DNA from: Anaerofustis stercorihominis DSM 17244
GTDB lineage: Bacteria; Bacillota; Clostridia; Eubacteriales; Anaerofustaceae
Direction: 5' to 3'
NCBI RefSeq assembly: GCF_000154825.1
Contig: NZ_DS560019.1
Span: 682,001-746,000 of the forward strand
Length of the DNA: 64,000 bases
Shown here: piece by piece, positions 7,009-12,788 of the stretch
Numbering within the stretch: the first letter of the stretch is position 1
Layout: every line of letters begins with the position of its first letter
Program-made: the position numbers and the translations under genes
The notes under the pieces: model-generated
Database searches by the model: none
Told to the model about the DNA's origin: nothing
Seen by the model: the letters and a program-made list of their open reading frames with translations, nothing else

Positions 7009-7623
7009 ATGAAAAATGTAAAAAAATTGACCGGTTTTATTTTGAGTATTTTAATGCTCGTGTCTTTGAGTGCATGCGGCGGACAGTCACCGGATAAAGC
7101 GGTAAGTGAATATTTGGATGCACTTAAAACTTACGATGCCGAAACACTTAAAAACTATGAAGATGTATTAGACAGTGTGGATAAAAATCTAAGCAGTTTT
7201 TTAGATGAAAAGGACAAGGATAAAGTAGACAAAGAAAGTCAGGAAATAGCTAAAAAAATATTATCTAATCTATCTTACGAAATCGTATCTACTAAAGACA
7301 ATGGAGATACTGCCACAGTAAAAGTAAAAATAACGAATAAGGACTTTGGCAGCGGAATGAAAACATTTTTTACCGATATGTTCGCATATGCTCTATCTCA
7401 TTTAGATGCGTCAGAAGATGAAATGAATAAATACGTTGAAAAGAAACTAAATACAATGATTGACGATGCGGTTAAAAGCTCTACAACAGTTACAAATGAA
7501 GTAACAGTAACTTTAAACAAGAAAGACGATAAGTGGGTAATAAAACAAAATGATAAATTATCAAATGCTATTTTAGGTAATCTCCTTGATAGCTTAAATG
7601 ATTTATCTGATTCATTCAAGTAA
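7009..7623 (+). CDS. Putative lipoprotein, unknown function (204 aa)
   Basis: Begins with a lipoprotein signal peptide: basic MKNVKK, hydrophobic core and lipobox LSAC with Cys about residue 23. It would be anchored to the outer face of the membrane. The mature part is charged and soluble, with a DKAVSEYLDALKTYDAETL start resembling the DUF4878/NTF2-like group of small lipoproteins, but I do not recognise the family with certainty. Its own RBS (AAGGGG) and a terminator shared with the convergent BceB-type permease mark a single-gene unit. No link to the ABC genes downstream can be claimed, as they are on the other strand. Confidence 0.75.
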   Translation: MKNVKKLTGFILSILMLVSLSACGGQSPDKAVSEYLDALKTYDAETLKNYEDVLDSVDKNLSSFLDEKDKDKVDKESQEIAKKILSNLSYEIVSTKDNGDTATVKVKITNKDFGSGMKTFFTDMFAYALSHLDASEDEMNKYVEKKLNTMIDDAVKSSTTVTNEVTVTLNKKDDKWVIKQNDKLSNAILGNLLDSLNDLSDSFK

Positions 7624-7625
7624 AT

Positions 7626-7655
7626 AAAAAGAGGCATAAGCCTCTTTTTTAATTT
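7626..7655. terminator. Bidirectional terminator between lipoprotein and ABC permease genes
   Basis: AAAAAGAGGC, loop ATAA, GCCTCTTTTTT: a perfect A/T-flanked hairpin lying between two convergent genes. It overlaps the permease stop codon at 7649-7651. Confidence 0.85.
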
Positions 7656-9715
7656 TCTTTGATTATATTTTTGCTTGAGAAGTAAGTCAATAAGAAATAT
7701 CCTCCGTAAATCAATATTATTACTACAGATGTTGCGATAATAGAAGGAAGTATATTCATATGACCTATTGTACTTAATACATAATCTGCAAATTGAAGTC
7801 CGAATATTGAATGAACGACAGCAAGCAATAACGGAAGTATGAAAAATATCCCGATTTGAGCGAATAAAGCTTTATTTATCATGCCCTCACTCGTACCTAT
7901 TTTTCTTAATATGGAATATCTGTCTTTATTATCCGCACTTTCCGAAAGTTCTTTTAAAGCTAAGATTGCAGCCGATGTAATAAGGAATATGATACCGAGA
8001 TATATCCCGATAAACGTCACCGTAGCGCCAAGTCCTTTAGAAGATTCGATATTTGTAATCCTCGTCCTTCCATTTATCTGAATGGCATAATCTTTTACAT
8101 CTTTGAATTTACTGTTTTCTTCCAAATCTTTTAACATCTTTTCTTCAAAAGTTATTTTATCTCCCTTAGAAGAAACGGAGTAGTTTGAATTTGCATAACT
8201 TTTTTCTATCCAACTCGTTTTAAGATTTGCACTATCCGGAAGTACTATGATCCCGGTATTTATAGACTGTATACTATCTTCTATAAAACCATCAATACAT
8301 TTTTCATTTACGGGAGTATAAGATTTTCCACCTATACTTATTTCGGTTCCGCTTTTAAGTGCCTTATCACGATATACCTTTATGTTATCGTAATCACATA
8401 TTACCGCATACTCTTTATCATTCAATTTGATTTGTTCATTTCCGAATAGTTTAGCGATTTTATTATAATCCGACAATTTCATGATTTCTTCAGCAGTACC
8501 ATACTTAATACCCGGAAAATCTTTTTCCATTTCTTTAATCTGATTTTTTAAAGTATCCTTCATCGTTAATTCATTTGTTGCATAAGTATATGTTTCGGTA
8601 TAGTTTTTAAAATCTTTATTGATATCATAACCCAATTCATTTAATATCTCTTTAACGCTTTTTTGGGAGTAATCAATCGCAGCCTCAGTGTATTTACCGT
8701 TATCCGGCAAATTCATAGTCTTGCTTATCGTCATATCGACCGGATTATACTTATCTAAATTATAAGTCAATGAACTATTCATCGCCAGTCCGGATGAAAG
8801 CATACCTATGGTTGTAAATAACATTAAGCATATAATGCTCATAGATATTACCGTAGTGTTTATCTTCGAGTCTATTTGTTTAAGTACGAACATATTTAAA
8901 TTTTTATAATATAACCTCTTATTCGATTTCACGAGTTTTAATATAAAACCTGACAGTGAAAAGAAGAAGAGGAATGTAGCGACCGAACCGATAGCAATAT
9001 ATATAATAATATCGTTTTGATTTAACCCGTCTACCCCCGCAGTGACTTTATAATAAGAAAATCCCAACATTATTATAGATATTATAAATACAATTACGGA
9101 TACAATCGGATTTCTCATTTTGATTTTTTCCGATTTTCTGCTTGCCATCAATAAATCAATGAGTTTATATTTTGATATTGCAAAGGTATTAAATACCATT
9201 ACGCATAAATACATAACCGAGAAATATATTACCGTTTTTATTATAGCAGCGCTTGATAATACAAAATGAAAGTTACTCATATCTGCTTCAAACATATTAG
9301 CAACTATAATAGACATAAACTGCGAAGCGAATACTCCTAATACTAATCCTACAGCCAAAGATATGATACCAATAAATAAGGTTTCCAAGAATAATATTTT
9401 GGATAACTGTCCTTTTCCCATCCCCAGAGTCAAATAAATACCAAATTCTTTTTTCCTTCTTTTTATCAAGAAGTTATTTGCATATATTACCAAAAACCCG
9501 AGTATGACGGATATAAAAACCGATAATCCGGATAACATATCGATCATGAGTTTAACTACGTCATAAGATGATTTTGAAAAATTCATCATAGGTTCCTGTG
9601 CATCCATAGAGTTAAATATATAGAATACAGCTACCCCAAGTATCAATGTCATAAAATATATGGCATAATCCTTAAAACTTTTCTTTATATTCTTAATCGA
9701 TAATTTAAATAACAT
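7649..9715 (-). CDS. BceB-type ABC transporter permease
   Basis: Large FtsX-family permease of 688 aa. The first membrane segments begin about residue 16, and a long hydrophilic extracellular domain (about residues 310-590) lies between the N-terminal and C-terminal groups of helices, the hallmark of BceB-type transporters that recognise peptide antibiotics bound to lipid II-cycle intermediates. It overlaps the ATPase gene upstream by 11 bases. Together with the lipoprotein, ATPase, kinase and regulator genes it forms a Bce module. In this family the transporter is also the sensor, passing flux information to the kinase. The drug specificity cannot be read from the sequence. Confidence 0.9.
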   Translation of the reverse strand: MLFKLSIKNIKKSFKDYAIYFMTLILGVAVFYIFNSMDAQEPMMNFSKSSYDVVKLMIDMLSGLSVFISVILGFLVIYANNFLIKRRKKEFGIYLTLGMGKGQLSKILFLETLFIGIISLAVGLVLGVFASQFMSIIVANMFEADMSNFHFVLSSAAIIKTVIYFSVMYLCVMVFNTFAISKYKLIDLLMASRKSEKIKMRNPIVSVIVFIISIIMLGFSYYKVTAGVDGLNQNDIIIYIAIGSVATFLFFFSLSGFILKLVKSNKRLYYKNLNMFVLKQIDSKINTTVISMSIICLMLFTTIGMLSSGLAMNSSLTYNLDKYNPVDMTISKTMNLPDNGKYTEAAIDYSQKSVKEILNELGYDINKDFKNYTETYTYATNELTMKDTLKNQIKEMEKDFPGIKYGTAEEIMKLSDYNKIAKLFGNEQIKLNDKEYAVICDYDNIKVYRDKALKSGTEISIGGKSYTPVNEKCIDGFIEDSIQSINTGIIVLPDSANLKTSWIEKSYANSNYSVSSKGDKITFEEKMLKDLEENSKFKDVKDYAIQINGRTRITNIESSKGLGATVTFIGIYLGIIFLITSAAILALKELSESADNKDRYSILRKIGTSEGMINKALFAQIGIFFILPLLLAVVHSIFGLQFADYVLSTIGHMNILPSIIATSVVIILIYGGYFLLTYFSSKNIIKEN

Positions 9716-10472
9716 CGTTTAGTTCACCTCCAAGAAGCGTAACTACTTCGATAATTTTATTAAAGAACTCTTTTCTGGAGCTGTCTCCTCTTACAATTTC
9801 ATTGAATATCTTGCCGTCTTTAATAAAGAGTATCCTTCTGGCTTGTGATGCTGTAAAGGCATCATGTGTTACCATCAAAATAGTAGCACTTAATTTTTCA
9901 TTCAGTAAATCTAAACTTGACAAAAGCATCTTCGCGGATTTTGAATCGAGAGCCCCTGTAGGTTCATCCGCAAGGATCAATTTAGGATTGGTAATTATTG
10001 CTCTTGCGCATGCAACTCTTTGCTTTTGTCCTCCTGACATTTCATAAGGATATTTGTTAAGTACTTCTGTTATGCCGAGTGCTTTTGCAACATTTTTTAC
10101 TCTTCTCTCTATATCGTTAGGTTTGATCTTTTGTATAGTTAAAGCAAGGGCTATATTCTCAAAAGCAGTCAAAGTATCAAGCAAATTAAAGTCCTGGAAT
10201 ATGAAACCAAGTCTGTTTCTTCTGAATTCATTTAACTGTTTACCTTTTAAATTAGTAATATTGATATCACCGACAAAAATATCTCCGCTTGTAACTTTAT
10301 CTATGGTAGATATAACATTTAAAAGCGTTGTTTTACCGCTTCCGCTGGAACCCATTATCGCAACGAATTCACCCTTTTCTACTTCAAAACTTATATCCTC
10401 TATAGCCTTTGTTAAATTACTCTTATTCCCATAATATTTTTCAATATTTTCAACTTTTAATACTCTTTCCAT
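9705..10472 (-). CDS. BceA-type ABC transporter ATP-binding protein
   Basis: ABC ATPase of 255 aa from the MacB/LolD-like clade that pairs with FtsX permeases. Walker A is GSSGSGKTT, the Q loop is IFQDFNLL, the signature is MSGGQKQRVACARA and Walker B with catalytic Glu is LILADEPTGALD; the H loop is VTHDAF. It is translationally coupled to the permease gene and powers antibiotic removal from its target in Bce systems. The 12-base gap from the upstream lipoprotein gene places it in the same operon, behind the BceR-like operator at 11033-11048. Confidence 0.93.
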   Translation of the reverse strand: MERVLKVENIEKYYGNKSNLTKAIEDISFEVEKGEFVAIMGSSGSGKTTLLNVISTIDKVTSGDIFVGDINITNLKGKQLNEFRRNRLGFIFQDFNLLDTLTAFENIALALTIQKIKPNDIERRVKNVAKALGITEVLNKYPYEMSGGQKQRVACARAIITNPKLILADEPTGALDSKSAKMLLSSLDLLNEKLSATILMVTHDAFTASQARRILFIKDGKIFNEIVRGDSSRKEFFNKIIEVVTLLGGELNDVI

Positions 10473-10484
10473 AATAAATCTCCT

Positions 10485-10961
10485 TTAAATTTCCTTTGAT
10501 ATTAGATTTAGTGAGCCGCTAAAATGATCACCTATAAATCCTATATAAAAATCCCCATCGTATACGGTTATATTGATTTCCCCGCTTTCAAAGCCTGCAC
10601 CTTCAAATAAATTGATGGTTTTAACTTCTCCGTTGTTTTTACAAACTAATTTACCTCTTCCTTTATCAACACTGACTTTATAAATCAGACTGATTTTCTC
10701 TTTTGGTCTGTTAACTTTGCAAGAGCCAAATAAAACTTCAGTATTATGAAAATCATTATAATTACATTCATAAGTCCCTATGTTGTAATTTTTTCCCAAA
10801 AATCTCTTACCAACCAAGTCATTATCTTTTGTAAGAGCATTCTTTCCAAATGTTTCAATAATATCATTGTACTTATTTATTACTTTATCTTTATTTATGC
10901 TGCAGCCTACCAATAACAGTGAAATCGAACAAATAAGTACCAGTGCAACTTTTTTCTTCAT
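10485..10961 (-). CDS. Small lipoprotein encoded inside the Bce operon (158 aa)
   Basis: Starts with MKKKVALVLICSISLLLVGCS, a clear lipoprotein signal with lipobox LVGC. The mature domain of about 138 residues is mostly beta-rich by appearance and carries three more cysteines (YECN, GSCKV, LVCKN). I do not recognise the family. It is the first gene of the operon with the BceAB-type transporter and sits directly downstream of the predicted regulator operator and -10 box, so it should be the most strongly induced product. A role as an extracytoplasmic accessory, for example target shielding or substrate capture, is inference only. The start is supported by GGAGGGAG 6 bases upstream. Confidence 0.8.
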   Translation of the reverse strand: MKKKVALVLICSISLLLVGCSINKDKVINKYNDIIETFGKNALTKDNDLVGKRFLGKNYNIGTYECNYNDFHNTEVLFGSCKVNRPKEKISLIYKVSVDKGRGKLVCKNNGEVKTINLFEGAGFESGEINITVYDGDFYIGFIGDHFSGSLNLISKEI

Positions 10962-10984
10962 TTTATCTCCCTCCTTTTAATCAA

Positions 10985-10990
10985 ATTATA
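10985..10990 (-). promoter_or_regulatory. -10 box of the lipoprotein-ABC operon
   Basis: TATAAT on the minus strand, 24 bases upstream of the lipoprotein start codon. The matching -35 position (TGGATG, about 11008-11013) is poor, as expected for a promoter that needs an activator. Confidence 0.6.
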
Positions 10991-11032
10991 GAAGAAGATA
11001 TTTTTTTCATCCATTGATTTATATTACATAAC

Positions 11033-11048
11033 CTTACAGTTTTGTAAG
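11033..11048. promoter_or_regulatory. BceR-like operator
   Basis: CTTACAGTTTTGTAAG: it contains TTACA-N4-TGTAA, matching the TNACA-N4-TGTAA consensus known for BceR-type regulators, with one extra matching base on each side. It lies about 20 bases upstream of the weak -35 region of the lipoprotein-ABC operon, the place expected for an activator. Confidence 0.75.
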
Positions 11049-11086
11049 ATTTAAATTCAGTATAAAAATTGATCTATTATATAAAT

Positions 11087-11115
11087 AAAAAAACAGACAT
11101 ATGTCTGTTTTATTT
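11087..11115 (-). terminator. Terminator after the Bce-type kinase gene
   Basis: Inverted repeat AAACAGACAT/ATGTCTGTTT with a T-run on the minus strand. It overlaps the stop codon of the kinase and separates the regulator-kinase unit from the transporter operon. Confidence 0.8.
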
Positions 11116-12126
11116 TACCTCATCTATAAGAGAACTCAAAGGAAAAGTGATTATAACCACGGTTTTAGCATTTTCCTGGGAAAGTATATCTATTTTATGA
11201 TATAAGTTGTCGCAAAGGGTCTTACAAAGATATAACCCCATACCCGTAGACTTATATGTTTTTCTTCCGTTGGTTCCGGTAAATCCTTTTTCAAATACCT
11301 TACCAAGCTCACTTTTGTTTATCCCTATCCCATTATCCTCTATATAAAGCTCTATCCCGTCTTTCTTCTTTATGGAATAAATCCATATTTTAGGTTTTTC
11401 ACCTTTTGAATATTTAATACTATTTATTATTATTTGATTTATAATGAACTCAAGCCATTTACTATCGCTGTTTACCTCTACATCAAGGTCATTCATATAT
11501 AAGCTTATATGCTTATTAAGAAAATCCTTTTTATTCCTAAGCACCGCTTTCTTTACTATATCTTCCAGCTTGACTCTTTTTATTATATAATCTTTTTCAA
11601 CGTTTTTACTTCTCGCATAATATAAAACCTGTTCAACGAGATTATCTATTTTATTTAACTCTTCGTCTATACTATCCGTTACTTCATTATTATTATTTGC
11701 TATTATCATTTTAGAAGTGGAGATTGGAGTTTTTATTTCATGACACCAAAGTTCTATGTAATCTTCCAGGTCATGATTTTTTCTTTTATATAAATTAACA
11801 TATTCATTCATTGATTTATCGATATCATAAATCGTATCATTTAAAATCCTGCCCTCTATAAAATTAGGATTTCTGATAAATTCACTTATTAAATATTTCT
11901 TATCCAAATTAGCCAAGTTTTTCTCAAGTCTGTTATAAAAATCTCTTTTTCTGTAAAATTCATAACCGAAAGAAATAACCGGGATTACAAATGTCAAAAC
12001 CAATATATTTACTTTCAGCGAGCTGTTGACTTTAAATATATTAAGCAGAAACAGGCTTATTAAAAATAAACCTACATACAACATTATATTTACGAACTTG
12101 TCCCTTAAAAAATCTTTTAGCTTCAT
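11110..12126 (-). CDS. BceS-type intramembrane-sensing histidine kinase
   Basis: Kinase of 338 aa with two N-terminal membrane helices (about residues 13-31 and 38-56) joined by only a few external residues, so it has no sensor domain of its own. This is the intramembrane-sensing design whose partner BceB-type transporter supplies the signal. The H box is ELWCHEIKTPIS with His129, and the ATPase domain shows QIIINSIKYSKG, EDNGIGI and GMGLYLCK. The gene overlaps the regulator gene by four bases. The transporter genes follow on the same strand after a terminator and the operator. Confidence 0.92.
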   Translation of the reverse strand: MKLKDFLRDKFVNIMLYVGLFLISLFLLNIFKVNSSLKVNILVLTFVIPVISFGYEFYRKRDFYNRLEKNLANLDKKYLISEFIRNPNFIEGRILNDTIYDIDKSMNEYVNLYKRKNHDLEDYIELWCHEIKTPISTSKMIIANNNNEVTDSIDEELNKIDNLVEQVLYYARSKNVEKDYIIKRVKLEDIVKKAVLRNKKDFLNKHISLYMNDLDVEVNSDSKWLEFIINQIIINSIKYSKGEKPKIWIYSIKKKDGIELYIEDNGIGINKSELGKVFEKGFTGTNGRKTYKSTGMGLYLCKTLCDNLYHKIDILSQENAKTVVIITFPLSSLIDEVK

Positions 12127-12788
12127 GATATTATGTATCCCTGTCCTCTTTTTGTCTCAATAAAATTTTTAAGCTCCACACTTTCAAGCTTTTTTCTAAG
12201 CCTATTGATATTTACGGTTAGAGTATTATCATCAACAAATTCATTATTATCCCATAAATAATCCATAAGCTCGTCTCTTGATACTATTCTAGACTTATTT
12301 TTTAGAAGAAAATGTAATATTTTAAGTTCATTTTTACTTAAATCGATTTCTTTATCATTATATGAAAAAGTACTTTTTGAAATATTTAATTTAAGTCCGT
12401 TATAAAATATAACATCACTGAAATTTTTATTTACTCTTTTTAAGAGTGCTTCTATCCTTGCTATTAAAATCCTCGGATTATATGGTTTTGTAACATAGTC
12501 ATCTGCTCCGTAATTGATACTTAAAAGCTCGTCCATCTCATTATTTCTGCTCGTAAGCATTATTATAGGTATATCCGAAGATTTTCTGACTTCTTTACAA
12601 ATATATTCACCGTCAATACCCGGAAGCGTTATATCAAGAAGGATAAGATCGGCATTACCTGCCAGGATAATATCCACACTATGCTTAAAATCCAAAATCT
12701 CACTGACTTCATAGCCATTATTTTTCAAATATAATGTTAATTCACCTCTGAGTTTATTATCGTCTTCGACTACAAGTATACGTGACAT
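12123..12788 (-). CDS. BceR-type response regulator
   Basis: OmpR-family regulator of 221 aa. Receiver domain residues 1-115 with Asp52 in LILLDITLPGIDG and the Lys of YVTKPYNPR; C-terminal winged helix with NRLRKKLE and TKRGQGYII. It pairs with the adjacent kinase, and the predicted target is the TTACA-N4-TGTAA site upstream of the lipoprotein-ABC operon. Its own upstream region holds a different perfect palindrome at 12828-12847. The ATG follows AAGGAGA. Confidence 0.92.
   Translation of the reverse strand: MSRILVVEDDNKLRGELTLYLKNNGYEVSEILDFKHSVDIILAGNADLILLDITLPGIDGEYICKEVRKSSDIPIIMLTSRNNEMDELLSINYGADDYVTKPYNPRILIARIEALLKRVNKNFSDVIFYNGLKLNISKSTFSYNDKEIDLSKNELKILHFLLKNKSRIVSRDELMDYLWDNNEFVDDNTLTVNINRLRKKLESVELKNFIETKRGQGYIIS

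Follow-up and report, generated by a model that had tools for sequence, protein, structure and literature searches.

A lipoprotein family linked to Bce and LanFEG-type transporters, with a member in a Bce-type module of Anaerofustis stercorihominis

The stretch of the Anaerofustis stercorihominis DSM 17244 genome analyzed here (64,000 nucleotides of contig NZ_DS560019.1, positions 682,001 to 746,000; called the window below) carries a Bce-type module of five genes, all on the minus strand, in which a gene for a small lipoprotein, here called LP, accompanies those for a response regulator, a sensor kinase, an ABC ATPase, and an FtsX permease. LP belongs to an unnamed accessory family common to two kinds of transporter, and this family is linked near-exclusively to Bce and LanFEG-type modules, in many genera. 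The linkage is wider than an earlier note, made from the DNA sequence of this region, had guessed. Work on Bce modules treats them as a two-component system with a transporter. LP is very probably an accessory of peptide-antibiotic detoxification modules, and by analogy with LanI proteins such as NisI it may capture the antibiotic near the membrane, either as the peptide alone or in complex with its lipid-cycle target, the mechanism that we favor, at about even odds.

Linkage of the LP family to two kinds of pump

A profile of LP relatives was run against 391 genomes of the class, 398 of the phylum, 199 of the order of genome G360, 148 of family f62, and 9 of the family of genome G074; the single LP protein was searched in 13 genomes of the window's family and in plasmids, and a relative in viral contigs. 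Because the number of scored candidates per genome was capped, the searches may under-count. The linkage count covers 54 compiled places, 31 with E<1e-10 and 23 weaker. A same-strand Bce or LanFEG-type permease was found no more than 2.5 kb away at 29 of the 31, and the remaining two relatives begin at 450 bases or less from a contig end; clear relatives of LP away from a pump were seen only at contig ends. The partner was BceB at 14 of the linked places, so that the repeated occurrence beside bceAB-like genes, the lack of which the earlier note would have counted against its proposal, is borne out. At the other 15 places the partner was LanE or LanG, a partnership with LanFEG-type transporters that the note had missed.

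The permease profiles LanE2 and LanG2 were seeded partly by gene position. However, 15 of the 29 linked places were used in neither the LP profile nor the permease profiles, and all 15 are linked, so the circularity of such seeding is avoided. The weaker places serve as a built-in control. Only two of these 23 were linked, and both are true members (a Subdoligranulum plasmid match and G046c, cut by a contig end); G046b, at the very start of its contig and without upstream sequence, is a third true member, and the other 20, some of them matching in the signal-peptide region only, were unlinked, with the linkage of G798, G812, G360:C7, and G005 judged on 1.5-kb flanks only. With separate profiles, no BceB row among those listed scored as LanE or LanG. 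The label "LanFEG-type" stands for best match plus gene order: the LanF-like ATPases of loci L006 and L033 score under the cut-off of TIGR03740, and permeases tried against lantibiotic permease models gave weak matches or none.

The position of LP varies. It lies ahead of the ATPase gene in 4 of the 14 Bce loci (the window, G001, G002, and G985), after the permease gene in the other 10, and after the permease genes in all 15 Lan loci; a first position as a family rule is thereby ruled out.

Several further genes were seen around LP relatives. Nine loci, mostly of one LanFEG-type operon class (L031, L033, L034, L036, L042, L091, L092, L094, and L100), encode directly 5' of LP a protein of 94 to 103 amino acids with three hydrophobic segments, which comes after the last permease gene wherever the sequence covers that gene. 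On the minus strand of L038 (7168-8266) and L039 (7685-8630), a DUF1093 (YxeA-family) gene comes next after LP and then one for a GT51 transglycosylase, which was called from a Pfam match in L038 and from likeness of sequence in L039, giving the order regulator-kinase-BceA-BceB-LP-YxeA-transglycosylase. In a Bce module that lacks LP (L113:5950-6723), a GT51 transglycosylase gene likewise starts where bceB ends, so the transglycosylase is tied to Bce modules more than once. A search of phage records was fruitless, and seven of eight viral-contig scans yielded no new relative of LP; one yielded L111, a contig filed as viral on which an LP relative accompanies a LanG-like permease (469-1898), flanked by a methylase-like gene and phage-like genes as read by eye, a setting hinting that such modules are mobile. 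The profile also weakly matched (E 6e-10 to 1e-4; L053 to L055 and L102 to L107) lipoprotein-like proteins that are similar in length but sit among other genes; these may mark a wider superfamily.

The Anaerofustis module and its putative regulated unit

The earlier note had read the window as encoding a Bce-type module, and Pfam matches and open reading frames (ORFs) agree (Table 1). A BceA ATPase occurs with a single large FtsX permease, a kinase without a sensor domain adjoins an OmpR regulator, and a BceR-type operator precedes the transporter genes. The interval that the note had assigned to the module, 10485-12788, holds LP, the kinase, and the regulator; the transporter itself falls outside it, directly downstream.

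Table 1. Features of the Bce-type module, in window positions
Feature	Position	Strand	Basis and remarks
OmpR-family response regulator (BceR-like)	12123..12788	-	Pfam Response_reg 1.6e-23, Trans_reg_C 1.1e-25
Sensor kinase, BceS-like	11110..12126	-	Pfam HATPase_c; two predicted transmembrane (TM) segments, short loop, no large outer domain
Terminator-like hairpin between kinase and LP genes	11090..11111	-	Fold z -2.79; 2/200 shuffles fold as well
BceR-type operator CTTACAGTTTTGTAAG	11033..11048	-	Perfect inverted repeat CTTACA-N4-TGTAAG
Second half-site ATGTAA	11024..11029	-	Adjoins operator; in conserved register with following ATCAATGG block
-10 hexamer TATAAT of LP-transporter unit	10985..10990	-	Conserved column block in promoter alignment
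Lipoprotein LP, 158 aa	10485..10961	-	ORF list; lipobox LVGC; mature part ~139 aa; predicted beta-sandwich
BceA-like ABC ATPase	9705..10472	-	Pfam ABC_tran 1e-34
BceB-like FtsX permease, 688 aa	7649..9715	-	Pfam FtsX 7.6e-16; divergent middle (residues ~300-550)
Terminator-like hairpin 3' of permease gene	7626..7649	-	Detected on both strands

The regulator showed 39 to 56% identity to those of other LP-bearing Bce modules, and the ATPase 49 to 73% to BceA of six such modules outside the genus. The kinase matched Pfam HisKA below the cut-off of that model, and its best NCBIfam match, SapS (1.1e-61), was likewise below cut-off. Eleven hydrophobic segments were counted in the permease, whose outer domain was placed by likeness rather than by a topology program. 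A second lipoprotein-like gene (7009-7623, plus strand) converges on the module; its resemblance to DUF5105/DUF4878 is weak and falls below cut-off, and its synteny is kept in G002 (95%) and G001 (28%).

LP, the ATPase, and the permease look like a regulated unit of their own, with LP first, because one hairpin parts the kinase gene from the LP gene and another ends the permease gene; on the position of LP directly behind the operator the earlier note was thus right, as the ORF order and the operator itself also indicate. We take the inverted TTACA/TGTAA motif to be a BceR-type operator. Its core occurs once in the window against 0.18 expected, with at least one occurrence in 17 of 100 shuffles, and the full 16-mer lies at one place only in the 2.28-Mb genome (reversed control, 0), where, being a palindrome, it is reported on both strands. 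In an alignment of ten promoters of LP-bearing Bce modules, picked for having the operator, the operator, half-site, and -10 of the window align with those of the other promoters. Scanning 15 LP-bearing Bce loci, we found the core TTACA-N4-TGTAA perfect 5' of the first gene of the transporter unit in 10 (the window, L007, L008, L038, L039, L040, L044, L093, L098, and L099) and one or two bases off in three (L041, L095, and L097); it was not found in L035 or L101. The site is kept ahead of the first gene whether LP or BceA leads. The sister species G001 has a split module, in which LP and bceAB (L007) keep the operator and the matching kinase gene (71%; G001:C66:54152-55153) lies about 37 kb off on the same contig.

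LP is the single member of its family found by a search of the whole genome. The protein has a signal peptide and, at residues 17 to 20, the lipobox LVGC, which marks it as a lipoprotein; anchoring at the outer face of the membrane is predicted on this basis. The gene is evidently real, since the protein is 94% identical in G002 and 44% identical in G001, with a dN/dS of 0.05 against G002; the LP of A. stercorihominis DSM 28733 is also 94% identical. Four of 28 family members match no lipobox pattern, and two of these (L038 and L039) have a TM-type N terminus. The mature part of the window protein has three cysteines beyond that of the lipobox, which the earlier note had singled out. They are no family feature, as the G001 protein has none and the 28 members have 0 to 5, and a cysteine-based function is ruled out. 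Mature starts were set by a simple lipobox pattern, seemingly too early in a few members, so that cysteine counts and the charges given below are approximate.

No known domain family accounts for LP. It gave no Pfam match, NCBIfam matches all below cut-off, and no PADLOC or PHROGs match at E<=0.01, so annotation by such resources would miss it. Across 14 members, Pfam matches were scattered: no family was matched by more than two members, no match had an E below 0.005, and DUF1093/YxeA (PF06486) gave none at E<=0.1. Peptidase families including S41 gave no match for LP or 13 relatives. An identity as YxeA, NSR, or another known domain family is therefore ruled out by the lack of profile matches.

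Possible functions of LP

Bce and LanFEG-type pumps have in common their ligand class and its lipid-cycle targets. A partner of both kinds of pump more likely acts on the ligand or its target than by way of one permease, and this common ground favors capture. In such a scheme, the BceS-BceR pair would report antibiotic flux, and LP would be made together with the transporter, exported, and anchored on the outer side of the membrane. There it would capture the peptide or the peptide-target complex, lowering the free dose and handing the peptide to, or backing up, the ATP-driven transporter, much as is described for LanI lipoproteins such as NisI next to LanFEG; co-induction, binding of peptide or target, and a benefit to the cell are what we infer. 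Excerpts from PMC5786555 also describe a common ligand class and lipid-cycle targets for the two pump kinds (published sources are cited here from excerpts throughout). The mature parts are acidic in 26 of the 28 members, with a mean charge of -10.7, and would thus be fit for cationic peptides. In line with capture as well, the outer parts of the module are those most diverged from G001: identity is 44% for LP, 89% for BceA, and 72% for BceB, falling to 42 to 62% per 50 residues within BceB residues 350 to 550. The whole genome has no LanC-like gene (PF05147), so LP does not lie inside the gene cluster of a lantibiotic producer; this points to resistance, and immunity of a producer to a LanC-dependent lantibiotic is ruled out.

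A number of results weigh against capture. The acidic-binder argument is weakest for the window protein itself, because its net charge is +1 (that of its G002 relative is -2). Neither NisI nor SpaI was matched among PDB chains by sequence or profile. The AlphaFold model of LP is weak (pLDDT 63.7, pTM 0.58, three sequences) and consists of an N-terminal helix and a beta-sandwich; NisI and SpaI are absent among the fold matches listed for it, an absence that excludes nothing. The rapid divergence of LP is apparent only at the larger distance to G001, and the low identity there could reflect gene replacement. Against G002, LP at 94% has changed no faster than the kinase, the regulator, and RNase III, each at about 95%; identity in the middle of BceB is 60 to 84%, and the raised dS of the permease (1.02; other genes, 0.26 to 0.61) may be a sign of recombination, not of adaptation. 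The C. difficile lipoprotein CD1348, encoded beside cprABC, was not induced according to the excerpts of PMC5786555. In addition, LP is an optional extra of Bce modules. Family f62 had LP in 14 of 148 genomes and BceB at 75 places in 66 of the 148, with LP adjoining 6 of the 75. A six-frame search of 20 f62 BceB loci without an LP match found LP in none; these 20 were the better-scoring of 69 such places rather than a random draw. Downstream of the permease L117 has just 962 bases, and the sequence ahead of it in L118 and L132 is short.

The main rival to capture is a role in signaling like that proposed for YsaD, in which LP would contact the permease or kinase and set the threshold of the flux sensor. 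YsaD, as described in PMC7438565, is exported, has the first gene in its transporter operon, and shifts the promoter response while hardly affecting resistance, and in L038 and L039 LP and a DUF1093 gene share one gene run, showing that such partners co-occur. However, LP itself has no DUF1093 match. Its family, moreover, accompanies both BceS-type kinases and the quite different LanK-type kinases of 305 to 470 amino acids, and this difference between partners makes one common signaling contact less likely. We consider a signaling role rather unlikely.

Unlikely, too, and slightly more so, is binding on the target side, to lipid II, undecaprenyl pyrophosphate, or nearby wall glycan, whereby LP would shield the target from the peptide. 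Foldseek and VIA-align matched the model to generic jelly rolls, many of them carbohydrate-binding modules, with Z from 7.4 to 8.7 among the matches listed, and the gene run of L038 extends to a GT51 transglycosylase, which works on lipid II. Yet a Z near 8 is a common arrangement according to the fold tool's own note, the model is weak, and no conserved ligand site is known in LP; a binder of an unchanging target, furthermore, need not diverge to 44% identity within a genus. That LP is a passenger lipoprotein without a role in the module is very improbable: most Bce modules examined lack it and its sequence is divergent, but its linkage is near-exclusive across many genera, two transporter kinds, and more than one gene order, its frame is retained in all but a few loci (it is broken in G066), its dN/dS between close species is low, and it stays with bceAB in G001 though the kinase gene has been parted from them.

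The best tree of 28 LP rows had three changes between Bce and Lan partners, and in it the Anaerofustis LP joins LanFEG-linked LPs (support 92/93, not starred). A single Bce clade was not rejected (approximately unbiased [AU] test, p 0.166), and with AU tests ranging from 0.11 to 0.27 transfer between transporter kinds was dropped as a firm claim. It is possible, though we lean against it, that LP is a transporter-independent capture lipoprotein family moving between LanFEG and BceAB, and that the Anaerofustis member came from a LanFEG-type system and was placed first in a Bce operon. Were this true, a Bce transporter would have gained a LanI-like partner.

Comparison with known systems

The window module shares with BceRS-BceAB of B. 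subtilis the regulator, the short-loop kinase, the BceA ATPase, the FtsX permease, and the BceR-type inverted-repeat operator; it differs in the lipoprotein gene that stands ahead of bceA in the transporter unit. The earlier note had held that known Bce modules contain only four components. This premise is wrong, because extra lipoproteins, proteases, and small proteins have been published (PMC5786555, PMC7438565, PMC6291627, PMC9241761). According to excerpts of PMC5786555, an additional lipoprotein or protease is found in some Cpr/Bce operons, with NSR in the NsrFP operon, and PMC6291627 lists VraH with VraDE. SaNSR with NsrFP, NsrX with MutFEG, and VraH with VraDE thus resemble LP as extra components of peptide-resistance operons. 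NSR is an S41 protease and VraH a transmembrane protein, whereas LP matches no peptidase family. YsaD, a secreted YxeA-family protein (DUF1093, TIGR01655), belongs to the Bce-like ysaDCB operon of Lactococcus lactis, with a promoter before ysaD (PMC7438565). Like LP, it is a small exported extra protein at the head of its operon; the two differ in domain family, and both kinds stand side by side in L038 and L039.

The LanI proteins, NisI and SpaI, are similar in being lipid-anchored exterior proteins encoded with a peptide-antibiotic transporter, LanFEG (anchoring is predicted for LP), and relatives of LP come after the permeases of LanFEG-type operons. They differ in that no sequence kinship with LP was detected, the window genome lacks a LanC-like gene, and the partner of LP is a Bce transporter. 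Two pairs are precedents for capture: NisI and the NisFEG pump act together (PMC4828448), and the nisin-binding NsrX accompanies MutFEG (PMC9241761). CD1348 likewise adjoins a LanFEG-like (Cpr) resistance operon, cprABC, a likeness by gene position only. A survey of lanI in gut bacteria lists none in the commensals tested, as far as the excerpts of PMC10877564 go, and we infer that LP-like proteins may be among those that such counts miss. As far as their listings go, literature searches showed no paper describing a single LP-like family common to Bce and LanFEG modules. Accessory proteins as such were already known; what these searches did not show is one lipoprotein family common to both kinds of pump, which in gut Clostridia is a candidate, open to testing, for a capture step that the two pumps share.

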